DNA from: Pseudomonas prosekii
GTDB lineage: Bacteria > Pseudomonadota > Gammaproteobacteria > Pseudomonadales > Pseudomonadaceae
Length of the DNA stretch: 64,000 bases
Direction: 5' to 3'
NCBI RefSeq assembly: GCF_900105155.1
Contig: NZ_LT629762.1
Coordinates: 3,996,501 to 4,060,500 of the forward strand
Shown here: piece by piece, positions 38,346 to 61,052 of the stretch
How positions within the stretch are numbered: position 1 is the stretch's first letter
Layout: every line of letters begins with the position of its first letter
Made by a program: the position numbers and the translations under genes
The notes under the pieces: generated by a model
The model's database searches: none
Told to the model about the DNA's origin: nothing
Seen by the model: the letters and a program-made list of their open reading frames with translations, nothing else

Positions 38346-41300
38346 TCAGTCTGTGGTCGCCAACGCCGTTGCAGGCGCGGGTGCTGGTGGGTGGGAGTGT
38401 CTATGAAAAAGTCGCTCGAGCCACAAGTATATGACCGGTGTGGTGAACAACGTCAGCGCCTGGCTCACCAGCAAACCGCCGACCACCGCGATCCCCAACG
38501 GCTGGCGCAGCTCGGCGCCGGTGCCGTAACCGAGCATCAGCGGCAGCGCGCCGAGCAGGGCGGCGAGGGTGGTCATGATGATCGGCCGGAACCGCGTGAT
38601 GCACGCCTGATAAATCGCCTCTTCCGGCGGCAAGCCCCGGCTGCGCTGCGCTTCGAGGGCGAAGTCGATCATCAGGATGCCGTTTTTCTTGACGATGCCG
38701 ATCAGCAACACCAGGCCGATCAACGCCATGATCGAGAAGTCCTGACCGCAGATCCACAACATGATCACTGCGCCCAGGCCCGCCGACGGCAGGGTCGAGA
38801 TGATCGTCAGCGGGTGCACGAAGCTCTCGTAAAGCACGCCGAGAATGATGTAGACCGCCACCAGTGCCGCCAGAATCAGCCAAGGCTGGCTGGCCAGCGA
38901 ACTCTGAAACGCCTGCGCCGCACCCTGGAAATTGCCGCTGATCGCGGTCGGCATGCCGATTTCCGCTTTGGCCTGATTCAGCAGAATCACCGCATCACCC
39001 AACGCCACGCCGGGCGCCAGGTTGAAGGACATGTTGGCGGCCGGAAACATCCCGTCGTGGGCAATCGACAATGGGCCGATGGTCGGCGCGTCGAACTTGG
39101 CCAGCGCCGACAACGGCACCATTTCCCCGCTCAACGGCGAGCGCAGGTAGAAATAATTCAGGCTTTCAGCCTTGCCGCGTTGTTGGGTGTCGAGCTCCAG
39201 AATCACGTTGTATTGATTGATCTGAGTCTGGAATTCGTTGATCTGCCGCTGACCAAAAGCGTCGTACAGCGCCTCGTCGACATCACTGGCAGTCAAGCCG
39301 AAACGCGCGGCGGCGCTGCGGTCGATGCTGATGTGGGTGATGCTGCCGCCCAGTTGCAGGTCGTTGGAAATATCGCGAAACGCCGGGTTGCTGCGCAATT
39401 TGTCGGTCAGGCGTTGGGTCCAGGTGCTCAGCGTTGCGCCGTCGTTGCTCTTGAGCACGTATTGGTATTGCGCGCGGCTTGGGCCGGAGCTGAGGTTGAT
39501 GTCCTGGCCGGCGCGCAGGTAAAGAACGATGCCGGGAACTTTCATCAGTTGCGGGCGAATCCGGTCGATGAACTGGCTGGCCGTGACGTCGCGGTCGCCG
39601 CGTTTTTTCAGGGCAATCCAGAAACGCCCGTTGGCGATGGTCTGGTTGCTGCCGGAGACGCCAACCGAGTGCGAAAACGCTTGCACGGCAGGGTCCGCTG
39701 CGACGATTTCGGCCATCGCCAAGTGTTTTTTCACCATGTCGCCGTAGGAAATATCCGCGGCCGCTTCGGTGGTGCCGAGGACAAAACCGGTGTCCTGGAT
39801 CGGGAAGAAACCCTTGGGGATAAAGATGTAGCCGGCCACCGCCAAGCCCAGCGACAGGAAAAATACGCCGATCATCAAGCGCTGATGGGCGAGGGCGCGG
39901 CGCAGGCCTTTCTCGTACCCTGCGAGCAAACGGTCGCCGAAGGTCTTTTTGCTATTGGCGTGGTGCACCGGCGCGCGCATGAACAGCGCCGCCAGCGTTG
40001 GCGCGAGCGTCAGCGAAACCACCACCGAAATCATGATGGTCGAGGTCGCAGTGAGGGCGAATTCCTTGAACAGCCGCCCGACCACGCCGCCCATGAACAG
40101 CAGCGGAATAAACGCCGCGACCAGCGAGAAACTGATGGAAACCACGGTGAAACCGATCTCGCCGGAACCCTTGATCGCCGCTTCGCGCATGCCGTCGCCG
40201 GCCTCCAGATGCCGGTGAATGTTCTCCACCACCACAATCGCATCGTCGACCACAAACCCCACGGCCACCACGATCGCCACCAGCGTCAGGTTGTTCAGGC
40301 TAAAACCCATGACGTACATCAGGGCAAAACTGGCGATCAGCGACACACCGAGCACCGCCGAGACGATCAGCGTCGCCGACCATTGACGCAGGAACAGCGC
40401 CATTACGGCCACCACCAGCAGGACCGCGATCAGCAAGGTGATTTCCACCTCGTGCAACGATGCGCGAATCGTCTGCGTGCGGTCGATCAGCACTTTGACC
40501 TCAACCGAGGCCGGCAGCATCGCTTCAAGCCCCGGCAACGCCGCTTGGATGCGATCCACGGTCTCGACAATGTTCGCCCCCGGTTGCCGCGAAATCACCA
40601 GATTGACCCCCGGCCGATCACCGGCCCAGGCCTGCACGTAGGCATCTTCCGACCCGTTGACGACTTTGGCGACATCTCTCAGGTGAACCGGTGCACCGTC
40701 CTTGTAGGAAACGATGAGTTGGCTGTATTCGTCGGGGTGAAACAGTTGGTCGTTGGTCGACAGCGTCGAAATGCTCGACTCGCCATACAACGCGCCTTTG
40801 GCCAGGTTGAGGCTGGTTTGCTGGATCGCCAGGCGAATGTCGGCGAGGGTCAGGCCGATGGCGGCGAGTTTGTCCGCCGAGGCCTGGACGCGAATCGCCG
40901 GACGTTGCTGACCGGTAATGTTGATTTGCCCTACACCGTCGATCTGGCTTATCTGACGCGCGAGCAGAGTTTCCACCAGATCGCTGAGTTCGGTGCCGGG
41001 CATCTGCGTCGAGCTGACACTGAGGATCAACACCGGACTGTCGGCCGGGTTGACCTTCTTCCAGGTCGGCAGCGTCGGCATGTCCTTGGGCAGTTTGCCG
41101 GCGGCGGTATTGATCGCTGCCTGAACTTCCTGAGCGGCGGTGTCGATGCTTTTATCGAGGGTGAATTGCAGGGTCAGCAGGGTCGAGCCGAGGGCGCTGC
41201 TCGAGGTCATTTGGGTCATGCCGGGGATGGCGCTGAATTGCACTTCCAGCGGCGTTGCCACCGACGACGCCATGGTGTCGGGGCTGGCGCCGGGCAGTTG

Positions 41301-41450
41301 CGCGTTGACCTGAATCGTCGGGAATTCCGCTTCCGGCAGCGGCGCAATCGGCAAACGCGGGAACGCGATGACGCCGAGCAGCACCAGGGCAAACGTCAGC
41401 AGAATGGTCGCGACCGGGTGATCGATGCACCACGCCGAAGGGCCTTTCAT
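38346..41450 (-). CDS. RND efflux pump, inner-membrane transporter (HAE-1/MdtC-like)
   Basis: 1034 residues, the normal size for a hydrophobic-drug RND pump with twelve helices and two large periplasmic loops. It opens with DHPVATILLTFALVLLG and keeps the TM4 proton-relay Asp pair in VVDDAIVVVENI. It resembles the MdtB/MdtC branch, but only one RND gene is present. It is in an operon adaptor-pump-regulator-kinase and its start overlaps the adaptor stop (ATGA). No outer-membrane factor gene is linked; a shared TolC/OprM-type channel is inferred. Confidence 0.93.
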   Translation of the reverse strand: MKGPSAWCIDHPVATILLTFALVLLGVIAFPRLPIAPLPEAEFPTIQVNAQLPGASPDTMASSVATPLEVQFSAIPGMTQMTSSSALGSTLLTLQFTLDKSIDTAAQEVQAAINTAAGKLPKDMPTLPTWKKVNPADSPVLILSVSSTQMPGTELSDLVETLLARQISQIDGVGQINITGQQRPAIRVQASADKLAAIGLTLADIRLAIQQTSLNLAKGALYGESSISTLSTNDQLFHPDEYSQLIVSYKDGAPVHLRDVAKVVNGSEDAYVQAWAGDRPGVNLVISRQPGANIVETVDRIQAALPGLEAMLPASVEVKVLIDRTQTIRASLHEVEITLLIAVLLVVAVMALFLRQWSATLIVSAVLGVSLIASFALMYVMGFSLNNLTLVAIVVAVGFVVDDAIVVVENIHRHLEAGDGMREAAIKGSGEIGFTVVSISFSLVAAFIPLLFMGGVVGRLFKEFALTATSTIMISVVVSLTLAPTLAALFMRAPVHHANSKKTFGDRLLAGYEKGLRRALAHQRLMIGVFFLSLGLAVAGYIFIPKGFFPIQDTGFVLGTTEAAADISYGDMVKKHLAMAEIVAADPAVQAFSHSVGVSGSNQTIANGRFWIALKKRGDRDVTASQFIDRIRPQLMKVPGIVLYLRAGQDINLSSGPSRAQYQYVLKSNDGATLSTWTQRLTDKLRSNPAFRDISNDLQLGGSITHISIDRSAAARFGLTASDVDEALYDAFGQRQINEFQTQINQYNVILELDTQQRGKAESLNYFYLRSPLSGEMVPLSALAKFDAPTIGPLSIAHDGMFPAANMSFNLAPGVALGDAVILLNQAKAEIGMPTAISGNFQGAAQAFQSSLASQPWLILAALVAVYIILGVLYESFVHPLTIISTLPSAGLGAVIMLWICGQDFSIMALIGLVLLIGIVKKNGILMIDFALEAQRSRGLPPEEAIYQACITRFRPIIMTTLAALLGALPLMLGYGTGAELRQPLGIAVVGGLLVSQALTLFTTPVIYLWLERLFHRHSHPPAPAPATALATTD

Positions 41451-42607
41451 CGCTTGGGCTCCGTTTGCACCACTTGCGGCGGCTCGCTGAGGACTTGCAC
41501 GGTGGACCCCGGTTTGAGCCGCGACTGCCCGTCGCTGACCAGTATGTCGCCGGGTTTGACCCCGCTGATGATGTCCTGGCCGCTGCCCTGATAGACCATT
41601 TGCACTTGCACAGTTTCGACTTTGTCGCCGTTGACCCGGTAGACGAAGTGTTGATCGAGCCCACGTTGTACGACTGTCGGCGGCACCACCAGCGCATCTT
41701 TACTCAACGCTGTCTGAATTTTTACCGTGACCAGCAAGCCCGGCCAGAGCTTTTGCCCCGGGTTGTTGAATTCAGCCTTGGCGCGAATCGTCCCGGTGTT
41801 GGCGTTGATCTGGTTGTCGATCAGCGTCAGGTGGCCTTCGCCCAGCAGGTTGCCGGTTTCGCCATCGGTGTCGGCGCCGATGTAGGCCTTCACTTGCGCG
41901 CGTTGCGGGTCACCGATCAGGCCTTGCAGGGTCGGCAGCATTTGCTGCGGCAGGGAAAGCTCCACGGCAATCGGATCGATCTGCGTCACCGTGAACAACC
42001 CTTGGGTATCGGTCATGCGCAGGAAATTGCCTTCATCGACTGTGCGAATACCGACGCGACCGGTGACCGGAGAGCGAATCTGCGTGTAGGAAAGCTGCAC
42101 CTGCGCGGCGTCGATGGACGCCTGATTGCCTTGCGCGGTGGCTTTGAGCTGGTTGACCAGCGCTTGTTGCTGGTCGTAAGTCTGCTTGGACACGCCGTCG
42201 TCGACGCTCAACAGCTTGTAGCGCTTGAGGTTGACCTGCGCCACTTGCAGCTGCGCCTGGCTCTCGCCGAGTTGCGCGCGCGCCTGATCGAGGCTGGCGC
42301 GGATCGAACGGTCGTCGATGGTGGCGAGCAGGTCGCCGGTCTTGACCAGTTGACCTTCCTTGACCAGCAACTTGGTGAGAACGCCGTCGATCTGCGGCCG
42401 GACCACCACGCTGTGCAGCGAAAGCACCGAGCCGATGCCGCTGACGTAACGCGGCACATCTTTCGCGGCAACTGTTACCACGCGCACCGGAATCGCGGTC
42501 GGCGCGGCGAGTTTGGCGGTGGCCGGTTTAGTCGCGTACCACAGGACCAGCGCCGTCAGGACGATCAGCGGGACAGCGATCAACGCGGATTTTTTGTGGA
42601 TTCGCAT
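41447..42607 (-). CDS. RND efflux periplasmic adaptor (MFP) subunit
   Basis: 386 residues. An N-terminal membrane anchor (LIAVPLIVLTALVLWYA), with no lipobox, is followed by the split lipoyl domain (SVVVRPQIDGVLTKLLVKEG and IRSPVTGRVGIRTVDEGNF). A helical hairpin lies between them, then beta-barrel and membrane-proximal domains. It bridges the RND pump to an outer-membrane channel. First gene of the four-gene operon. Confidence 0.92.
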   Translation of the reverse strand: MRIHKKSALIAVPLIVLTALVLWYATKPATAKLAAPTAIPVRVVTVAAKDVPRYVSGIGSVLSLHSVVVRPQIDGVLTKLLVKEGQLVKTGDLLATIDDRSIRASLDQARAQLGESQAQLQVAQVNLKRYKLLSVDDGVSKQTYDQQQALVNQLKATAQGNQASIDAAQVQLSYTQIRSPVTGRVGIRTVDEGNFLRMTDTQGLFTVTQIDPIAVELSLPQQMLPTLQGLIGDPQRAQVKAYIGADTDGETGNLLGEGHLTLIDNQINANTGTIRAKAEFNNPGQKLWPGLLVTVKIQTALSKDALVVPPTVVQRGLDQHFVYRVNGDKVETVQVQMVYQGSGQDIISGVKPGDILVSDGQSRLKPGSTVQVLSEPPQVVQTEPKR

Positions 42608-42663
42608 GCGAAAGAGGCGCCGGGGCTGGAGGGACGGGAATAGCGTCGGATTTTATACCTCCC

Positions 42664-42720
42664 GTTATAGTCCTGTGACCCGGTCAGGAAAGTGACTGCT
42701 AACTGACGCGGCTGTCAGTT
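42664..42720 (-). promoter_or_regulatory. Promoter region with two dyads upstream of the efflux operon
   Basis: Read on the minus strand, TATAAC (42669-42664) is a -10 candidate with no good -35. Upstream lie two perfect inverted repeats: TGACC-C-GGTCA (42676-42686) and AACTGAC-6 bp-GTCAGTT (42701-42720). CusR-like regulators recognise TGACA-type dyads, so the second is a plausible activator site for the operon's own regulator. Confidence 0.55.
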
Positions 42721-42756
42721 TGGCAGGCGTATTTCGCCAAATAGAACGAGTTATCG

Positions 42757-42828
42757 TTCATCGCGGGCAAGCCTTGCTCCTACATTTGGAATGCATTCCC
42801 TGTAGGAGCGAGGCTTGCCCGCGAAGGC
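42757..42828. repeat. REPIN upstream of the efflux operon
   Basis: ATCGCGGGCAAGCCTTGCTCC and its inverse GGAGCGAGGCTTGCCCGCGA, 'GGCTTGCCCGCG' class, between divergent genes. Confidence 0.85.
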
Positions 42829-42976
42829 GTCAGACCCGTCACCGCCAAACCCACAGACCGAATACTTGTCGCTTGAAACTCGCCGCTTGCAGCTTGCCGC
42901 TCCCGACACAGGTATACTCGCGCCTTTCGCGGTCCACCCATCGGGCCCGACTCTTTGTGCACCACCCGGAGCTTTC

Positions 42977-43231
42977 ATGACTTCCCCGACACAACCGCCG
43001 GTCGCCGACGCTTTGAGCGATGAGCCGGCAGACCTGCCAGACAGCGTCGACTCCAGCGCAGACAGCGAAAAAGCCGCGATCCCGGCGTTCAAGTTTCCGT
43101 TCAAACCGGGCGAACTGGCCGCCGCCAAGAATGCCAATCAGCCGTGGTACAAGAACGGCGCCAAGAACGGCCACACCAAAACCCCTGGCGCAGCGCCACC
43201 GGGTACGCGTCGTTCGATGGGCAAACGCTGA
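42977..43231 (+). CDS. Conserved small protein, probably disordered
   Basis: 84 residues. The first ~35 are acidic and rich in Pro, Asp and Ser. The middle has a patterned AFKFPFKPGELAAAKNANQ stretch, and the C-terminus is basic (PGTRRSMGKR). There is no signal peptide. GGAG precedes the ATG at 42977. I know no function. The charge polarity and basic tail would suit nucleic-acid or partner binding, which is only a guess. Confidence 0.6.
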   Translation: MTSPTQPPVADALSDEPADLPDSVDSSADSEKAAIPAFKFPFKPGELAAAKNANQPWYKNGAKNGHTKTPGAAPPGTRRSMGKR

Positions 43232-43280
43232 CGTTTAGCCGGCCATTGGCCTGAAAAAAGTCTGCGTGTTTTAAAGATTC

Positions 43281-43353
43281 TTCCCACAGGAATGAGCGAT
43301 TTGTCCTCTGGGAAAGTCGGTGGTCACTCGTCGAAGATTCACTCCTCGTGAAT
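43281..43353 (+). promoter_or_regulatory. Two inverted repeats upstream of the solute-binding/RidA gene
   Basis: TTCCCACAGGA (43281-43291) pairs with TCCTCTGGGAA (43304-43314) with one mismatch, and ATTCAC (43337-43342) pairs with GTGAAT (43348-43353). They could be an operator or mRNA hairpins. No T-run follows, so they are not a terminator. Confidence 0.35.
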
Positions 43354-43373
43354 GTTCGATGAAGGCCACTGAA

Positions 43374-44516
43374 ATGCCTCTGCTGAAAATCCTCTCTGTG
43401 CTGTCGCTGGTGGCTTTGACCACCGGTTGCGTGTCTTCTGCGGTCGAGCCGCAGATCCGCTTCGGCGTCGAAGCGTTGGTCCCACCGTTCGAAAGTCGTG
43501 ACGACAATGGTCAACTAGTCGGGTTGAACATCGAGTTGGGCAACGCGCTGTGCGCGCAATTGAAATCCAGCTGCGTCTGGGTCGATCAGGATTACGCCAC
43601 CAACATCGAAGCGCTGGAAGCCAAGCGTTTCGACGTGATCATGCCGATGACCGCCACGGCTGCGCGGCGCGAGCGCATCGATTTCACCGAAAACCTTTAC
43701 CCGCTGAGCAGCCGTCTGGTGGCGCGCCAGGGTTCTGCGCTACAGCCAACTGCCGAATCACTCAAAGGCCAGCGTATTGGCGTGCTGACGGGCACCAGCC
43801 GCGAGGCGTTCGCCAAGGCGCGTTGGCAGGTCGCCGGGGTGACGGTGCGCAGTTTCAGGTTCAACGATCAATTGATTGCCAGCCTGCAGGCCGGTGAAAT
43901 CGACGCCACGCTGCAAGACTCGATTGAAATCAGCCATGCGTTGCTGGCTCAGCCGCAGGGTCAGGCATTCGCCTTCGCCGGCCCGGCGCTCGACGATCCG
44001 ATGCTCGGCAGTGGCGTAGCGATGGCGGTGCGCAAAAGCGACACGGCATTGCGCGACAAGCTCAACGCGGCGCTGGAACGCCTGAAGCAGAATGGCCAGT
44101 ACCAGATGATCACCCAGCGCTACTTGCCGGCCGAAGCAGTCGATTCGCCGATCTACTTTCCCAACGACGAAGGCCTGCCATTCTCGGATGCGGTGCGCAT
44201 TGGCGATACGGTTTACCTGTCCGGCGTGCTTGGCTCGGGCGCTGACGGCGAACTGGTGAAGGGCGGCATCGGCCCGCAGACCGTCCAGACCATGGAAAAC
44301 CTGCGCACCGCGCTGCAAAGCCATGGTTCTTCGCTGGATAACGTGGCCAAGTGCACGGTGATTCTGGCTGACATCAAGGAATTCAACGCGATGAATGAAG
44401 TGTACAAACGCTACTTCCCGGCAGACCGCTTGCCGGCGCGTACGACGTTTGCCGCTAAAGCATTGGTGTTGGGTGCGCGGGTCGAGGTTGAGTGTCTGGC
44501 GGTGGCTGTTCGCTGA
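43374..44516 (+). CDS. Lipoprotein fusing a solute-binding domain to a RidA domain
   Basis: 380 residues. The lipobox VALTTGC places the lipid on Cys19. Residues ~28-252 are a family-3 amino-acid-type binding protein (IRFGVEALVPPFESRDDNG, IMPMTATAARRERIDFTE, GSGVAMAVRKSD). Residues ~258-380 are a complete YjgF/RidA domain (FSDAVRIGDTVYLSGVLG...NLRTALQSHGSSLDNV). Its enamine-deaminase Arg and Glu are kept, 15 apart (Arg356 in LPARTTF, Glu371 in RVEVECLAV), as in E. coli RidA Arg105/Glu120. There is no permease or ATPase gene nearby. ATG 43374 is chosen for AAGG 8 nt upstream; 43359 is possible. The single frame is uninterrupted. Confidence 0.85.
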   Translation: MPLLKILSVLSLVALTTGCVSSAVEPQIRFGVEALVPPFESRDDNGQLVGLNIELGNALCAQLKSSCVWVDQDYATNIEALEAKRFDVIMPMTATAARRERIDFTENLYPLSSRLVARQGSALQPTAESLKGQRIGVLTGTSREAFAKARWQVAGVTVRSFRFNDQLIASLQAGEIDATLQDSIEISHALLAQPQGQAFAFAGPALDDPMLGSGVAMAVRKSDTALRDKLNAALERLKQNGQYQMITQRYLPAEAVDSPIYFPNDEGLPFSDAVRIGDTVYLSGVLGSGADGELVKGGIGPQTVQTMENLRTALQSHGSSLDNVAKCTVILADIKEFNAMNEVYKRYFPADRLPARTTFAAKALVLGARVEVECLAVAVR

Positions 44517-44532
44517 TAGAGCGGTGGTGGCC

Positions 44533-44695
44533 GGTCTGGCGCCATCGCGAGCAAGCTCGCTCCCACAGGGGGGTTGTGAACGCTTCGGGATAGATGGAGG
44601 GCAGGTCGGGCGCCATCGCGAGCAAGCTGTGCTCCCACAGTAGGTCTATGGCGCTCCCAAATCCCTGTGGGAGCGAGCTTGCTCGCGATGAGGCA
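44533..44695. repeat. Three REP units
   Basis: ATCGCGAGCAAGCTCGCTCC (44543), a variant with a TG insertion (GAGCAAGCTGTGCTCCCAC, ~44620) and an inverted GAGCGAGCTTGCTCGCGATG (~44671). They fill the gap between convergent genes. Confidence 0.85.
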
Positions 44696-44719
44696 GTCAC
44701 TGCCAGCACATCTCTGGGA

Positions 44720-45469
44720 TCAAGCCGCCCGCAGCGAGATAAACGCATAGTTGACCGGCACTTCGGTCGCCACTTCAGCCCCAGCAGCCAACACTTGCCC
44801 GGCAATGTCATCGCCCGAGACGTGAAACACCCAGTCACCGCCCGGCGCTTGCGGCTGCTGCGCCGCGACCTGATCAACAATCGACGCAAACGCGTCCATC
44901 TGCGGCAGATACGCGGTAAACCCGTCACCCTTCAACGCCGCGGTGCGAATCCCCAGCAAGCCGCAAATCACATCCTTGGTCTGCACCTCATCGCGGTCAG
45001 CCTGACGTGAGCGCTGAATCAGCGTCAGCAGTTCCTGATCAACCAATTCGCCACCCACGATCAGGTCTGGGCCTCGCTCCCAGGACTCCGGCGGGCATTC
45101 CTTGACCGCCGTGTTCAGCGGAATGTGCGGATTGATTTCCATCGGATAGATACGACACACCAGCGGCCGGCGTTCGTAGATGCGGCAGAGATTGTCTTCG
45201 TCAAGATTCCGACAGGCGCCAACGTTGTAAGCGGCGAAAGTGATCGCCACATAGGCCTCGCTGGCACCGCTGCGAACCCGCACCGAGCGCCGTTCGGCAT
45301 GCTCGCGCTGCTGCAGCGGCAGGCCCAGGCCATTGCTCAAAAACCCTTCGACCAACACGATCACCTGACCACCGTCAGCCGCCCACATACGGGCTTCCTT
45401 CAGGGTCAGGGGCACGTGGTGATCAGTGCAGCATTTGCCGCAACCTACGCAGGAAAACGTCGTGTTCAT
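44720..45469 (-). CDS. YkgJ-family cysteine-cluster protein
   Basis: 249 residues. The N-terminal motif CVGCGKCC and a second set of cysteines (GACRNLDEDNLCRIYERRPLVCRIYP) match the YkgJ/UPF0153 family, thought to bind a zinc or iron-sulfur centre. No signal peptide. Function is not established in the family. Residues ~130-249 are less conserved and may be a substrate or partner domain. Confidence 0.85.
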   Translation of the reverse strand: MNTTFSCVGCGKCCTDHHVPLTLKEARMWAADGGQVIVLVEGFLSNGLGLPLQQREHAERRSVRVRSGASEAYVAITFAAYNVGACRNLDEDNLCRIYERRPLVCRIYPMEINPHIPLNTAVKECPPESWERGPDLIVGGELVDQELLTLIQRSRQADRDEVQTKDVICGLLGIRTAALKGDGFTAYLPQMDAFASIVDQVAAQQPQAPGGDWVFHVSGDDIAGQVLAAGAEVATEVPVNYAFISLRAA

Positions 45470-45553
45470 TTGTTCGACCGGCCAAATGTGAGTGCATCAA
45501 GTGGCGACGGAAAGCCACCGCACAGACAGCCGTCGAAGCAAGTTATGCGCCAC

Positions 45554-45880
45554 TCAGGGTTTTTTCGCGGCAGGGCGAATCGAGTCCCACTCGGTGACAT
45601 AGGCGGTTTTGCTCTGCTTGTTGTAGAGGCACAGCTCGCTGCCTTGCTGACCCTTCATGTGTTTCTGCGGGTATTGACCTTGCAGGAGAACAGCGACGTA
45701 ACCGACGCGATCATCGAATTGCGCGGCGTTGCCGACAGGTTTCGCGTCTTTGAGACCACTGGCCTTGGTGCAACTGGCGAGTACAGCTTTGTCGAAAGCG
45801 GCCCAGGCGTCCGGGCTGGAGGCGTGGGCCTGAGAGGCGAGGGCAGTGAAGCTGAGGGCGAGCAGGGTAGTGAGTTTCAT
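45554..45880 (-). CDS. Small exported protein of unknown function
   Basis: 108 residues. A signal peptide (MKLTTLLALSFTALASQAHA) is followed by ~88 mature residues with two cysteines (LASCTKAS and SELCLYNKQ) that could form a disulfide. The pattern VGYVAVLLQGQYP...AYVTEWD suggests a small beta fold. Start ATG 45880 begins the signal peptide. Family not recognised. It lies 84 bp downstream of the YkgJ gene start, on the same strand. Confidence 0.75.
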   Translation of the reverse strand: MKLTTLLALSFTALASQAHASSPDAWAAFDKAVLASCTKASGLKDAKPVGNAAQFDDRVGYVAVLLQGQYPQKHMKGQQGSELCLYNKQSKTAYVTEWDSIRPAAKKP

Positions 45881-45929
45881 CGGGGCAGCATCCTTATGGT
45901 TATTGGCCGAGGATGGAGTATGCCTGATG

Positions 45930-46004
45930 GCCTCATCGCGAGCAGGCTCACTCCCACATTGCAAACCATTCCCGCGTAGGAGCAAGGCTTGGCTGCGAAG
46001 GCGA
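45930..46004. repeat. REPIN, degenerate
   Basis: TCATCGCGAGCAGGCTCACTCC and an inverted GGAGCAAGGCTTGGCTGCGAAGGCG, mixing the two sequence classes. Confidence 0.7.
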
Positions 46005-46008
46005 TCAA

Positions 46009-46494
46009 TCAGGTTGGCACCGCTTCCCGGCGAACCACGCGCATGCCGGCGCTTTCATACAACCGCTGCGCCCGCAGGTTGTCTTCCAACACCTTCAAAT
46101 CGACAAACCCTTCACGCCGCTGCGCAAACACCGTGAACGCATGCAGCAACAACGCCCGGCCCAGTCCACGACCTTGCGCGCGCGGGTGCACCACCAGGTT
46201 TTTGATATAAGCGCTGGTCCAGCATTGGCAAACGCCGACGATCCCTTCGCCATCCAAAGCAATAAAACACAGGCTCGGGTCATATTCCGGATCGGTTTCA
46301 AAGCGCTGCTGCCAGGCGTCCAGCGCCGGCACGCGACCACCGCCCTCGCGATAACCCAGCTCCATCAACTGGTGCACGGCTTCGGCGAGTTGCGGACGGT
46401 ATTGGCTCAATTCGATGCCGGTCGGCCAGACAACCGGCGGCAGCGGCTCGGCGAGGTTGCGCCGCAGCAGAAAACAGAATTGCTCGGCCACCAC
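46009..46494 (-). CDS. GNAT-family N-acetyltransferase
   Basis: 161 residues. Acetyl-CoA loop is VVHPRAQGRGLGRALLLHAF (the R-x-x-G-x-G/A pattern), followed by FVDLKVLEDNLRAQRLYESAGM. These enzymes acetylate small amines or protein amino groups; the substrate is not predictable. The GTG start falls directly after the cheV stop (TGAGTG), so the two are co-transcribed and probably coupled. Confidence 0.88.
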   Translation of the reverse strand: MVAEQFCFLLRRNLAEPLPPVVWPTGIELSQYRPQLAEAVHQLMELGYREGGGRVPALDAWQQRFETDPEYDPSLCFIALDGEGIVGVCQCWTSAYIKNLVVHPRAQGRGLGRALLLHAFTVFAQRREGFVDLKVLEDNLRAQRLYESAGMRVVRREAVPT

Positions 46495-47397
46495 TCAGTG
46501 GCCCTGCTCGGCGACCGCCTTGGCGGCGGCGATCAGGCATTTGGTCAGTTCTGGCGAGGAGAACTTGGTCAACACCGCGTTGGCCCCTGCCAGCCGGGCT
46601 TTTTCACTGTTCATCGCGCTGTCGAGCGAGGTGTGCAGCAGCACATACAGGTGCGAAAAGTCCGGGGTTTCGCGCAGGGTGCGGGTGAACGCGTAGCCGT
46701 CCATCTCCGACATTTCGATGTCCGAGACGATCAGGTTGATCTGCTGCGCCGTGCCTTGCAGGTCGAGCAGGCAGTCGATGGCCTCTTTGGCGCTGCGCGC
46801 GGTGTGGCATTGCAGGCCGAGGTTGCGCAAGGTGTGCACCGATTGTTGCAGCGCCACCTGGCTGTCATCGACCACCAGAATCCGCGCGTTGCCGAGCACC
46901 TCGGCGTCTTCCATGCTCAGCTCGGTCGGCGCCACTTCGATCTGCGCCGGGGCGATGCCGTGGATGACTTTTTCGATATCCAGCACTTGCACCAGCACGC
47001 CGTCGACCGAGGTCACGCCGGTGATGTACGAGCGCACTCCGCCGGAACCGAACGGCGGCGGACGAATGTCGGTAGTCAGGCAATGGACGATCTTGCTCAC
47101 CGCTTGCACGTGCAACCCCTGTTTGGAGCGGCTGACGTCGGTGACGATCAGGCACCCGCCGTTGGGATCTTCCAGCGGCCGCTCACCGATGGCGCGGCTG
47201 AGGTCGATCACCGACAGCGATGCGCCGCGCAACGTGGCGATGCCTTTGACGTGCGGGTGCGATTCCGGGAGTTTGGTCAGCGGCGGGCAGGGGATGATCT
47301 CACTGACTTTGAGCAGGTTGATCGCCATCAACTTGCCGCTGCGCAAGGTAAACAGCAGAAGCGAAAGTGAATCTGCGCGGGCTTTGGTGGTGGACAT
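46495..47397 (-). CDS. cheV: Chemotaxis coupling protein CheV (CheW-REC)
   Basis: 300 residues. A CheW-like domain (~8-155: LLLFTLRSGKLMAINLLKVSE, GIATLRGASLSVIDLS, SYITGVTSVDGVLVQVLD) is joined to a receiver domain (~171-297) with phospho-acceptor Asp226 (IVSDIEMSEMDG). CheV couples receptors to CheA and adapts signalling by phosphorylation. Pseudomonads have several CheV paralogues; this one is not in a che cluster. Confidence 0.93.
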   Translation of the reverse strand: MSTTKARADSLSLLLFTLRSGKLMAINLLKVSEIIPCPPLTKLPESHPHVKGIATLRGASLSVIDLSRAIGERPLEDPNGGCLIVTDVSRSKQGLHVQAVSKIVHCLTTDIRPPPFGSGGVRSYITGVTSVDGVLVQVLDIEKVIHGIAPAQIEVAPTELSMEDAEVLGNARILVVDDSQVALQQSVHTLRNLGLQCHTARSAKEAIDCLLDLQGTAQQINLIVSDIEMSEMDGYAFTRTLRETPDFSHLYVLLHTSLDSAMNSEKARLAGANAVLTKFSSPELTKCLIAAAKAVAEQGH

Positions 47398-47508
47398 AAA
47401 AACCTTCTTTGGAGAAAGGTGATGGGCGAGGGTTAGTCGCCAAAAGCTATTGATGCCGGGTTATCGACTTGTTGCGGGCAGGCTTTAGAAAATCGGGTGA
47501 ATGGTCGG

Positions 47509-47611
47509 GCGCCATCGCGAGCAAGCTCGCTCCCACAGGGGATTTGCGGCGTACACAATATTTGTGTCTCCTGAAAATCAATGGTGGGAGCGAGCTTGCT
47601 CGCGATGGCGT
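47509..47611. repeat. REPIN between norR and cheV
   Basis: GCGCCATCGCGAGCAAGCTC and GAGCGAGCTTGCTCGCGATG inverted around a ~55-bp loop; the right end nearly touches the norR stop codon. Confidence 0.88.
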
Positions 47612-47613
47612 CA

Positions 47614-49164
47614 TCACTTCATCCCCAATCTTTTGGCCATGCGCCCAAGATTCGCCCGGTCGAGGCCTAGCTCACGGGCCGCGCTCGCCCAGTTGTTGTG
47701 GTGGCGTTCCAGGCAGGCGCTGATCAACTGCCGCTGATAATTCTCGGTCGCCACACGCAAATCCCCCGACACCGACACCACCGCGCTGGCCGCCACCGCT
47801 TCAGCCGCCGGCTCGACGCTGCCGTGCGGCAAGTCCAGGTCCGCCGCGCTCAAACTGAGAATCTTCGGTCGTTCCCTGCAATTGCCCAGCGCCTTCAGCG
47901 CGCTGCGGCCGATCAAGTGCTCCAGCTCCCGCACGTTCCCCGGCCACGCATACGCAAGCAACGCCGCTTGCGCATCGCTGTTCAGACGCAGGCTGTTCAG
48001 GCCCATGCGCGAGCGGTTCTGCTCAAGGAAAAAACCGCTGAGCAGCAACACGTCCCGCCCACGGTCGCGCAATGCCGGGACCAATAAAGGATAAACACTC
48101 AAGCGATGATAGAAGTCCGCACGATAACGGCCGCTGCGCACTTCCTCGGCGAGATCCCGATTGGTCGCCGCGATCAGCCGCACATCGACCTGATGCTCTT
48201 TATCCGAGCCCAAGCGCTGCAATTGACCGCTTTGCAGCACGCGCAGCAACTTGGCCTGCACCGTCAGCGAGAGCTCGCCGACTTCATCGAGAAACAGCGT
48301 GCCGCCATTCGCCAGTTCAAACTTGCCGCGACGATCACTGGTCGCGCCGGTGAAGGCGCCGCGCACGTGGCCGAACAATTCGCTTTCGACCAAGGTGTCC
48401 GGCAGTGCGGCGCAGTTGAGGCTGATGATCGGTTTGTCGGCGCGCGGCGAGGCGGCGTGAATCGCTTGCGCCACCAGCTCTTTGCCGACCCCGGTTTCGC
48501 CGGTGATCAGCACGGTCAAATCACTGCCGCCGACCAGACTGATTTCTTCCACCAGGCGTTTGTGCGCCTTGCTCTGGCCGATCATCTCGCGGTTCTGCTG
48601 GCCGCTGGCCTGACGGTACACCTCGGCGCGCTGGTGTTCGTCTTCAGCGCGATTGGCCAGGCGTTCGATGCGCTCGGCGGCGTTCACCGTCGCGGCGGCG
48701 AGGCTGGCGAAGGCTTGCAGGGCGTCGAGTTCGATCGGCTCGAATTGCTCCGGGTCCAGCGCATCGAGGGTCAACAGGCCCCACGGCCGTTCATCGATAA
48801 ACAGCGGGCAACCCATGCAATCGTGGACTTCCAGATGATCGTCGAGGCCGTCGACCAAGCCGTCATACGGGTCGGGCATGTCGCTGTCAGCGGCGAAACG
48901 TGTCGGCCCGGGACTGCTCAGCAGCGCCTCGAAGCGCGGGTGTTCGCTGACTTTGAAGCGCCGACCCAAGGTGTCGGTACTCAAACCGTCCACCGCTAAC
49001 GGCACCAGCCAATCGCCGTCGAGGCGCAGCAGTGCGGCGGCATCGCAGGGCAGCAGAGCGCGCATGGCCTCGAGCAAACGCCGATAGCGCTCGCCCTCGG
49101 GCAGTTCGCGGGACAGGTCGGAGACCAGGGGAAGCAAAGCAGTCAGCAGCGATTTTGCGGTCAT
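47614..49164 (-). CDS. norR: Nitric-oxide-responsive sigma54 activator NorR
   Basis: 516 residues. An N-terminal GAF domain (~1-170) has the iron-site region DMPDPYDG and a Cys in EVHDCMG that match proposed E. coli NorR ligands. The AAA+ domain has Walker [11 protein letters not shown] (221-230), the sigma54-contacting GAFTGA loop (269-274) and Walker [14 protein letters not shown] Fis-type HTH ([19 protein letters not shown]) ends it. It is divergent from hmp, which it should activate when NO binds the iron. Confidence 0.95.
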
Positions 49165-58383: not shown

Positions 58384-59802
58384 CTATGCCCAGCCCTTAT
58401 CCAACAACCGAAAAAACCGCTCCCGCACCTCAGGATCATCACTGTGCGCCACATTAAATCGCATGAACTCACTCGCATCCGCCGCTTTGCTCAGCAACGT
58501 CCCCGGCGCCAGTGCGACGTCCTTCTCCAGACCTTTCCTCGCCAGCGTCTCGGCATTCACCCCGCTGGGTAAACGCGTCCAGATAAACAAACCTTCGCCC
58601 GGCAACGAAGACACCGAACACCCGGCCTCGACCAGCCAGCGCGCTACGCGGCTGCTCGATTCGTAGAGCCGATCGACCGTGCGCCGCGTGTGTTTGGCGT
58701 AGCTGCCGTTGCTGAGCAGGGTGCAGGTGATTTGCTCGGCGAATTCCGAGGTCACGCCGCCGCAGGCCATTTTCAGGTTGATCAGGCGTGCCGCCAGTTG
58801 CGGCGAGAGCACCGCGTAGCTGACGCGGCTGTTGGCGGTCAGGGTTTTCGAGAAGCCGGACACGTAGCTGACGTTGTCCAGGCCGCTGGCGGCGAGGCGC
58901 GGGGTGCGACGTTGTTGCAGGTCGCCGTACAAATCGTCTTCTACTATATGGAAGCCGTGGCGGTGGCTCAGCTCCAGCAAACGGTAGGCTTGGGCCGGGG
59001 AGAACGAGTGGCCGGTCGGGTTGTGCAGCGTGCTGTTGGTCAGATAGAGCACCGGTTTGTGCGCGATGACTTGTTGCTCGAAGGCGTCCATGTCGATGCC
59101 GTCGCACTGGCGGGCAATGGTCACGACTTTGGCGCCGTGCAGCGCGAGGTTGGTGTGCATGTTGAAGTAGCACGGGTCGTCGAGCAGTACGCTGTCGCCG
59201 GGTTTGAGCAGCAGGCGCATCAGCAGGTCGATGCCCTGCATGGTGTTGGCGGTGGTGATGATTTGTTCGACCGGCGCCTCGATGCCGAAGGTCGCCAGTT
59301 TCACCCGCAACGCCTGGCGCAGCGGCAGGTAGCCGCCAGTGACGCCGTATTCGCCCATGCGCAGGGCCGAAGCGCGCAGCGTGCCGCGCACCGCTTTCAG
59401 CAGTTCCTCGGCGGGGAGCCAGGAGGAGGGCAGAAATCCGCAGCCGGGGCGCAGCGCGCCGTTGTCCAGCAGCACCGCGCGGCGCACCACGCTGAGCGTA
59501 TCTTGAGGTTGCAAGTCCGGCGCGGCGGCGCTCGGCAGCGTGGTTCTGGAGCGGTGCACGTAATGCCCCGAACCCTGGCGGGACACCACCAGGCCTTTGG
59601 CGCGCAAGTGGTCGAGGGCGTCGACCACCGTCGATTTGCCCACGCTCAACAGCTCGGCGAGTTCGCGGATCGGCGGCAGTTTGGCGCCGTGCGGCAAGCC
59701 TCCCTGGCTGATGGCGTTCGACAGCTGATCGACGATCTGCTGCACCAGCGGCACGCCCGGCTGGAGCTCGATGGCGGCGATCACGGCGCGTTGAGCCTGC
59801 AT
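58384..59802 (-). CDS. MocR-type regulator (GntR HTH fused to class-I aminotransferase domain)
   Basis: 472 residues. The winged-helix domain (~14-82) reads QQIVDQLSNAISQGGLPHGAKLPPIRELAELLSV in part, followed by a linker and an aminotransferase-fold domain (~115-472). The PLP-binding Lys319 sits in SGFSKTL, with NPTG (261-264) and the Asp in HIVEDDLYGD. MocR regulators sense PLP or amino-acid/PLP adducts. It is divergent from the RidA-like genes, so these are its likely targets. Confidence 0.92.
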   Translation of the reverse strand: MQAQRAVIAAIELQPGVPLVQQIVDQLSNAISQGGLPHGAKLPPIRELAELLSVGKSTVVDALDHLRAKGLVVSRQGSGHYVHRSRTTLPSAAAPDLQPQDTLSVVRRAVLLDNGALRPGCGFLPSSWLPAEELLKAVRGTLRASALRMGEYGVTGGYLPLRQALRVKLATFGIEAPVEQIITTANTMQGIDLLMRLLLKPGDSVLLDDPCYFNMHTNLALHGAKVVTIARQCDGIDMDAFEQQVIAHKPVLYLTNSTLHNPTGHSFSPAQAYRLLELSHRHGFHIVEDDLYGDLQQRRTPRLAASGLDNVSYVSGFSKTLTANSRVSYAVLSPQLAARLINLKMACGGVTSEFAEQITCTLLSNGSYAKHTRRTVDRLYESSSRVARWLVEAGCSVSSLPGEGLFIWTRLPSGVNAETLARKGLEKDVALAPGTLLSKAADASEFMRFNVAHSDDPEVRERFFRLLDKGWA

Positions 59803-59926: not shown

Positions 59927-60412
59927 ATGAATAAGCCAATTACCCGTGATGAACGCTTTATCGATCTGGCCAAGGAACATGGCTTCGACATCTACGACGA
60001 GAACACTGCCGGCGGGCATTACTCTTTGATCTTGCAACATGGCGATGAACTGTATGTCAGCGGCCTGGTTCCGCGCATGAACGGCAAAATCCAATACCCC
60101 GGCCGCGTAGGGCTGGAACTGAACCTGGCGGACGCCCAAGCCGCGGCGGGCATCAGTGCCATTCGCGCATTGGCGCTGATCATGGATGCGGTCGGCTCAC
60201 TGGATAAGATCAAGTCGCTGATTCGCGTCACCGTGCATGTCAAATCCACCTTTGACTTTATCGACCTCAGTGAAGTCGCCAACGGCGCTTCGGATATCTT
60301 TACCCATGTTCTGGGCGATGCCGGTAAACATACACGTACCACAGTCGGTGTTTACCAGTTACCGAAAAACGCCCCGGTAGAAGTGGACATGATCGTCGCT
60401 TTACAGCCGTAG
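59927..60412 (+). CDS. RidA/YjgF-family protein (first of a tandem pair)
   Basis: 161 residues. A ~30-residue extension precedes the Rid fold (ELYVSGLVPRMNGKIQYPG...). Arg137 (HTRTTVGVY) and Glu152 (APVEVDM) match the catalytic Arg105/Glu120 pair of E. coli RidA by spacing. RidA enzymes hydrolyse reactive enamine/imine intermediates made by PLP enzymes. It is about 69% identical (by my count over 160 ungapped residues) to the gene at 60558. No membrane segment. Confidence 0.88.
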   Translation: MNKPITRDERFIDLAKEHGFDIYDENTAGGHYSLILQHGDELYVSGLVPRMNGKIQYPGRVGLELNLADAQAAAGISAIRALALIMDAVGSLDKIKSLIRVTVHVKSTFDFIDLSEVANGASDIFTHVLGDAGKHTRTTVGVYQLPKNAPVEVDMIVALQP

Positions 60413-60557: not shown

Positions 60558-61052
60558 ATGACTGAGCAGATGACGTGCGATGAACGCTTTATCGCACTGG
60601 CCAGGGAACTCGATTACGACATCTACAGTGAGAGCAACACCGGTTGGCATTTCGAACCATTGGTTCGGCATGACGATGAACTGTATGTCAGCGGCCTGGT
60701 GCCGCGTAAACACGGCAAGGTTCAGTATCCCGGCCGAGTAGGGCTGGAGCTGTCGCTGGCCGATGCGCAACTGGCCGCAAGCATCAGTGCCATGCGCGGT
60801 TTGGCGTTGATCGTCGACACCATTGGCTCGCTGGACAAGATCAAGTCGCTGTTGCGGATCAACGTCTACATCAAGTCCACCGCCGACTTTGCCGAACTGG
60901 GCGAAGTGGCCAACGGTGCGTCGGATGTGTTCAGGCTTGTGTTGGGCGATGCCGGCAAACATACCCGCACCACCATCGGCGTGTATCAACTGCCCAATAA
61001 CGCCGCGGTAGAAATGGACATGATCGTCGCATTACGCCCCGCGCCGTTATGA
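60558..61052 (+). CDS. RidA/YjgF-family protein (second of a tandem pair)
   Basis: 164 residues, paralogue of the preceding gene with the same layout: N-terminal extension, ELYVSGLVPRKHGKVQYPG, conserved Arg137 and Glu152 (AAVEMDM). Divergence is concentrated in the first 40 residues, suggesting different partners or substrates. AAGTG lies upstream of the ATG; the Shine-Dalgarno is weak. Likely arose by local duplication. Confidence 0.88.
   Translation: MTEQMTCDERFIALARELDYDIYSESNTGWHFEPLVRHDDELYVSGLVPRKHGKVQYPGRVGLELSLADAQLAASISAMRGLALIVDTIGSLDKIKSLLRINVYIKSTADFAELGEVANGASDVFRLVLGDAGKHTRTTIGVYQLPNNAAVEMDMIVALRPAPL

Follow-up and report, generated by a model that had tools for sequence, protein, structure and literature searches.

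Introduction

Proteins of the RidA/YjgF/YER057c/UK114 family (PF01042) are imine/enamine deaminases that typically form trimers, in which adjacent monomers supply the residues of the active site. Changing the conserved Arg of RidA nearly abolished imine hydrolysis, while replacement of Tyr17 or Glu120 by Ala had little effect, and the groups Rid4 to Rid7, which are devoid of the Arg, presumably have other functions (PMC4433059; this and the other papers cited are drawn on from parts of their texts). In Pseudomonas, Rid proteins accelerate the clearance of the imines that amino-acid dehydrogenases release (PMC9714295, PMC5619798). In the Rid literature examined, these proteins belong to cellular damage control, and none of the main texts searched for the term periplasm contains it. 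Here, we describe a gene in which a RidA domain follows an export signal and a solute-binding protein (SBP) domain. It is located at positions 43374..44516 (forward strand) of a 64,000-nucleotide stretch of the Pseudomonas prosekii chromosome (NZ_LT629762.1, positions 3,996,501 to 4,060,500), which is called the window below, and its product is probably an orphan exported deaminase that carries a ligand-binding module.

Enzymes that derive from SBPs have been described as well. The cyclohexadienyl dehydratase of P. aeruginosa (PaCDT) is an SBP-derived enzyme with Glu173 as the general acid (PMC7683729, PMC10520331), and exported fusions of chorismate mutase to cyclohexadienyl dehydratase are known (PMC10520331). 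The latter resemble the protein described here in that an SBP-fold module and an enzyme are joined outside the cytoplasm and that the role of the arrangement is unsettled, but their enzyme partner is a different one and our protein retains little of the PaCDT active site.

The fusion is conserved in Pseudomonas

The gene encodes a protein of 380 amino acids in one open reading frame (ORF) without internal stop. Pfam assigns residues 28-251 to SBP_bac_3 (PF00497; E 2e-31, 108.9 bits versus a cut-off of 26.4) and residues 269-377, encoded at 44178..44504 on the forward strand, to the RidA family (PF01042; E 9e-29, 100.4 bits versus a cut-off of 27.3). This bears out the original prediction, made from the sequence of the window, of a single uninterrupted frame with a lipobox-like start, a family 3 binding domain and a full RidA domain. 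The fusion runs unbroken through both domains in at least 42 of 398 Pseudomonas genomes, both Pfam domains are marked in all of the best 120 of 314 relatives found, in the same order, and the architecture recurs in two other genera. This refutes the assumption of a sequencing or assembly artefact that joined two genes, such as the frameshift considered in the original prediction, and leaves it with practically no probability. Some automatic annotations of relatives already name both halves (e.g., P0013).

Among the matches listed, the Pseudomonas fusions fall into 16 with 74-100% identity (our own included), 18 with 57-66% and 8 with 52-55%. An order-level scan of 244 genomes from 112 genera gave two matches at 1e-70, both from Pseudomonas, and a phylum-level scan of 398 genomes from 212 genera gave eight matches at 1e-62, of which the three from outside the genus cover the SBP part only. 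Searches with the RidA part detected this architecture in P0257 of Nitratireductor thuwali (55% identity over 385 columns) and in P0258, and a genome scan added a fusion of Herbaspirillum rhizosphaerae with 67% identity to P0257. The search for further SBP_bac_3-RidA proteins proposed with the original prediction thus returned relatives in Pseudomonas, Nitratireductor and Herbaspirillum; in the 121 proteins and 35 genes compared below, the Arg is invariant and the Glu nearly so. The patchy spread suggests horizontal transfer of the fusion. Three further open frames were rejected as fusions: those of the class-level matches L063 (398 aa) and L065 (407 aa) are ordinary LAO-type proteins, and the 434-aa frame of L120 contains a RidA-only lipoprotein-like start.

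For 35 fusion genes, the median dN/dS was 0.12 (SBP part) and 0.13 (RidA part) within the group of near relatives, and 0.18 and 0.22, respectively, outside it, with 0.73 for the highest single pair. These values are rough, as many pairs are near synonymous saturation; pairs with a dS of zero, a dS of at least 3 or a failed estimate were dropped, so that 120 and 109 of 120 near pairs and 145 and 141 of the 171 remaining pairs were kept. These estimates indicate purifying selection on both domains. Known domains are combined here in a conserved architecture, of which our literature searches found no description; the methods of one paper state that Rid-domain fusions with other families were sought in SEED, and that survey may list this one (PMC4433059, seen in part).

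The RidA part retains the catalytic residues

Arg356 (codon 44439..44441, forward strand, as for all codons given below) aligns with the catalytic Arg of RidA proteins (R105 in E. coli TdcF), and Glu371 (44484..44486) with the Glu that is E120 in TdcF. The two residues are 15 positions apart and coincide with the Arg and Glu of solved RidA/UK114 proteins, in agreement with the spacing originally claimed. Conservation was analyzed in 121 relatives (P0001-P0121), which are not all independent (P0002 is 99% identical to P0001). The position of Arg356 is R in all 120 proteins having a letter there and in 35 of 35 genes, and no loss of the catalytic Arg across the genus, a further concern of the original prediction, was found. 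At the position of Glu371, 119 of 120 letters are E and one is A, and E is present in 32 of 35 genes. The fusion also keeps the Ser-Gly and Asn motifs of the family, and it is distinguished from the typical family member by its export, by the placement of RidA behind an SBP and by Phe at the position of RidA Tyr17, which is F in 116, L in four and Y in one of the 121 proteins. The score against TIGR00004 (Rid family detoxifying hydrolase) is 90 bits and lies below the cut-off of 106.25, as does that of a stand-alone RidA of the same genome (96.5).

Most fusions keep an export signal, fewer a lipobox

The N-terminus, MPLLKILSVLSLVALTTGC, consists of a basic residue and a hydrophobic stretch followed by LTTGC, and we read it as a signal peptide (43374..43430, forward strand) that would be processed at Cys19 (codon 43428-43430). 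The LTTGC motif has Thr instead of Leu at -3, yet it matches a lipobox pattern of the PROSITE PS00013 type. The start is of the lipobox type in 99 of the 121 relatives, a hydrophobic signal without lipobox in 20, and without a visible signal in two (P0075 and P0084), both of which are N-terminally shortened. The residue after the lipobox Cys is V, A, M or T and never Asp (99 of 99 lipobox-type proteins). Judged by these signals, export is conserved among the fusions and the lipid anchor is not, so that the lipoprotein of the original prediction stands as an exported protein but not as a universally anchored one.

A RidA domain outside the cytoplasm had been taken as a peculiarity of the fusion. 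This did not hold, since exported RidA proteins without SBP exist, though they are sparse in the class. Of the best 120 of 151 matches to the RidA part, 39 are shorter than 138 aa, and 72 of the other 81 have a lipobox- or signal-like start by a crude rule, a few of the 120 (e.g., P0123 and P0128) being fragments of fusion proteins. A clade of exported RidA proteins (99/96, 38 rows) in a tree of 49 RidA sequences encloses the fused RidA domains and the RidA-only forms; the RidA rows of our own genome have long branches in this tree and their placement is unsure. The exported RidA proteins, which are not known to have a subfamily name, share the signal peptide or lipobox and an LPFSDAV-like start with the fused RidA, of which they are the closest relatives, but they are stand-alone proteins, whereas the protein of the window adds an SBP domain. 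A search of 274 genomes of the class with an exported RidA as query gave three with a match at 1e-24, our own fusion among them; the matches in the other two genomes are RidA-only proteins that have a signal-like start. The existence of an exported RidA branch, which in some lineages is fused to an SBP, suggests that the envelope may be another place where reactive imines or enamines matter.

Two other arrangements were noted among the matches listed. P0254, P0256 and P0259 are apparent exported fusions of a short-chain dehydrogenase followed by a RidA domain, and P0242 contains three tandem RidA domains behind a possibly shortened signal peptide.

The SBP part is related to LAO and HisJ but has a different pocket

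The SBP part (residues 26-251; 43449..44126, forward strand) has LAO (ArgT) and HisJ as its nearest solved relatives by sequence and fold comparison, with 38% identity. Glu33 (43470..43472), Arg98 (43665..43667), Arg143 (43800..43802) and Asp182 (43917..43919) occupy the positions of LAO Asp11, Arg77, Gln122 and Asp161, respectively, and Thr is found at the position of Ser72. Arg98 thus corresponds to the LAO residue that binds the amino-acid carboxylate. Asp182 is replaced by Asn in 30 of the 121 proteins, while Arg143 is invariant (121 of 121 proteins and 35 of 35 genes). The pocket departs from that of LAO at the conserved positions V36, P91, R143 and E185, the LAO positions changed being Tyr14, Ser69/70, Gln122 and Asp161+3. 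The scores with the LAO/HisJ models are low (202.6 versus a cut-off of 256.35 for TIGR01096, 201 versus 440 for NF011586 and 192.9 versus 459 for NF011965), and none of the 16 NCBIfam models listed is matched above its cut-off.

Glu185 (43926..43928) aligns with the general acid Glu173 of PaCDT, and Asn164 with Asn152. The equivalent of Glu185 is present in 121 of 121 fusions, in 22 of 22 SBP-only genes of the locus and in one of 20 other SBP_3 proteins of our own genome, the single one (L117) being under the Pfam cut-off and poorly aligned. This comparison comprised 20 paralogues from 29 places, with frames of at least 420 aa and the fusion itself left out.

Either domain occurs alone at the locus

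To compare the locus between lineages, 20 regions of 17-19 kb were used, 16 with fusions, one RidA-only and three SBP-only. The gene lies in a conserved slot between an AcrB-type RND (resistance-nodulation-division) pump with its HlyD-type adaptor (38346..42607, reverse strand; clusters c1/c2) and a CxxCxxCC protein (PF03692; 44720..45469, reverse strand; cluster c3), both assigned by domain scan. Both flanks are present in 11 of the 20 regions and one of them in five more. The slot contains the fusion alone, or the fusion and an SBP-only gene with or without a gene for a PAS-type methyl-accepting chemotaxis protein (MCP), and elsewhere an SBP-only or a RidA-only gene instead of the fusion.

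The RidA-only lipoproteins G100 (in L053), P0122 and P0124 have the signal peptide of the fusion and are nested inside the near group, and P0129, also RidA-only, groups among other fusions in the RidA tree. RidA-only forms thus seem to have arisen by repeated loss of the SBP part. In a tree of 36 SBP sequences (midpoint-rooted and built on a subset, like the RidA tree), the fusions and the SBP-only sequences of the locus form one clade (100/100), within which the SBP-only sequences are a single clade (99/99) beside two divergent fusions (100/100). The SBP-only genes (L039:8360-9151 and 21 other loci) have lost the equivalents of E33 and D182 and kept those of R98, R143 and E185. The simplest reading would be an ancestral fusion with later, separate losses of either domain.

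Proposed function and alternatives

On balance, we favor the reading that the protein is an exported orphan deaminase of imines or enamines, equipped with a ligand-binding module that derives from LAO, rather than a subunit of an importer. This prediction is based on the export signal, the two intact and conserved domains and the absence of an adjacent importer, as well as on the relatives of the two parts, exported RidA proteins for the RidA part and LAO/HisJ-type binding proteins for the SBP part. The RidA part would assemble into the trimer usual for the family, with active sites at the subunit interfaces, which would display three SBP modules at the envelope, and it may hydrolyze amino-acid imines or enamines formed in the periplasm or entering it. 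The SBP part would bind an amino-acid-like ligand other than Lys, Arg or Orn, and ligand binding could raise the local substrate concentration or tune the enzyme. Since each domain was apparently lost separately, coupling of the two would be helpful but not obligatory. The fusion offers a testable handle, as one gene combines two domains, natural single-domain derivatives occur at the locus and the conserved pocket residues can be changed singly.

Several observations weigh against this function. The genes L024-L026, among the most divergent fusions, have Ala at Glu371, Ser at E33, Phe at Y74 and Gly at D182. The presence of exported RidA in only 3 of 274 class genomes, our own included, means that there is no general need for such a protein, and the existence of SBP-only and RidA-only derivatives, each in lineages nested within the fusions, makes an obligate coupling of ligand capture to deamination unlikely. 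An arginine-type substrate is doubtful because RidA-subfamily and Rid1 proteins were inactive on iminoarginine (PMC5619798, seen in part). No imine-making enzyme was identified either, because the gene neighbors vary across lineages.

A role as a sensor or signaling protein is conceivable but unlikely; in this reading, a ligand would be reported by the SBP part, with RidA present mainly as a scaffold for trimer formation or ligand binding. Rid4 to Rid7, which do without the Arg, set a precedent for Rid proteins with presumably other functions (PMC4433059, as above), SBP-only genes persist at the locus, the PAS-domain MCP gene is beside the slot in 5 of the 20 regions and a CheV-type gene is found in 12 of 20, in the window ~2 kb downstream of the fusion. 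Against this, a scaffold does not need an invariant catalytic Arg. The MCP (one representative) matches PAS and MCP-signal models and has no periplasmic sensor domain, and the MCP cluster is absent from the five near-group regions among the 20 (L048-L052).

We regard it as distinctly improbable that the fusion is the binding protein of an ABC (ATP-binding cassette) importer with a fused clean-up enzyme, feeding an LAO-type transporter encoded elsewhere. The LAO-like fold would fit, and in G141 and G079 genes read as LAO-type SBP, permease and ATPase are ~2.7-2.9 kb from the fusion, but no permease or ATPase gene was recognized by reading among the ORFs adjoining the fusion at 39000-49000, in keeping with the original observation of a missing transporter gene. 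Asp at the position after the lipobox Cys is the rule for lipoproteins retained at the inner membrane, and its complete absence from the lipobox-type fusions does not favor such retention. A simple LAO importer subunit is unsupported, given the scores under the LAO/HisJ models, the changed pocket and the lack of an adjacent importer.

Even less is to be said for the alternative that the SBP part has an enzymatic activity of its own, as a lyase or dehydratase in the manner of cyclohexadienyl dehydratase, and yields an enamine that the RidA part hydrolyzes. The invariance of Glu185 in fusions and SBP-only genes, its alignment and that of Asn164 with PaCDT residues, and the precedent of exported fusion enzymes with an SBP-derived dehydratase (PMC10520331) speak for it. 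Yet of the nine PaCDT active-site residues (PMC10520331, from the part of the paper seen), only the positions of Glu173 and Asn152 are identical and that of Thr132 is conservatively replaced; those of Tyr22, Trp60, Asn128, Asn133 and Thr169 differ, and Lys100 is outside the comparison. With five of nine residues different, the fusion is therefore not a cyclohexadienyl dehydratase. The closest solved relatives are binding proteins, and the extra Glu may merely bind a positive group of the ligand. The specific version, a two-step exported enzyme in which the SBP-derived domain converts an amino-acid-like substrate by elimination via Glu185 to an enamine that RidA hydrolyzes to keto acid and ammonia, is a long shot; if true, the SBP-only relatives, which have lost likely ammonium-binding residues (E33 to A/V and D182 to G), would bind the keto-acid product.

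Gene context and other Rid genes

A GAAGG sequence at 43361..43365 (forward strand) is the likely ribosome-binding site for the ATG start at 43374, and an alternative in-frame ATG at 43359 is possible. The linker region is encoded at 44127..44159 (forward strand). In a single-chain structure model of the fusion (pTM 0.58), the pLDDT of residues 252-256 in the linker is below 50, which leaves the orientation of the domains open; the VIA-align rows span residues 23-254, so that the RidA fold rests on sequence. A scan of 43200-44760 for promoters and terminators gave none, where shuffling expects 0.3 and 1.6. Directly 3' of the gene, 44518-44715 contains inverted and direct repeats with GCGAGCAAGCT cores, which resemble the REP (repetitive extragenic palindromic) elements of Pseudomonas.

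Upstream of the fusion, an 84-aa ORF (42977..43231, forward strand) had no family match in the domain scan; a cluster of small ORFs (c9) occurs in 9 of the 20 regions, and the 84-aa ORF is not part of it. In other lineages, the neighbors, as judged by reading, include acyl-CoA-metabolism genes (G141/G079), fimbrial-type genes (G037) and PhoU-like and M23-peptidase-like genes (G050), and the Herbaspirillum fusion has arginase-family and HutD genes 2-4 kb away. An attempt to guess the substrate from the operon failed, since the neighbors change between lineages.

The window and the genome contain further Rid genes. Approximately 15 kb downstream of the fusion, two tandem Rid-related proteins are encoded at 59927-60412 and 60558-61052 (forward strand), with matches to PF14588 and PF01042, beside a MocR/PdxR-like regulator gene (58384-59802) that is under the cut-off of that model. 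Elsewhere in the genome (L086:3661-6477), genes read as DadA-like, Rid and alanine-racemase-like follow one another, an order reminiscent of the P. aeruginosa dad operon. Such Rid genes next to amino-acid catabolic genes in Pseudomonas (DadY; PA5083) likewise pair Rid activity with amino-acid oxidation, but as separate genes, and the examples of our own genome have no signal peptide. In dguABC, Rid is paired with amino-acid oxidation and a binding protein. Another cluster of the genome (L083:2906-9625) holds a RidA gene together with an ABC importer, which comprises an SBP_3 protein and, by reading, permeases and an ATPase; it also encodes a KdgK-like kinase and an enzyme that has a D-ser_dehydrat domain. 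A pairing of Rid with a binding protein does exist in the form of separate genes, and the L083 cluster resembles a RidA-containing cluster for chitin oxidation (PMC9537276, seen in part).
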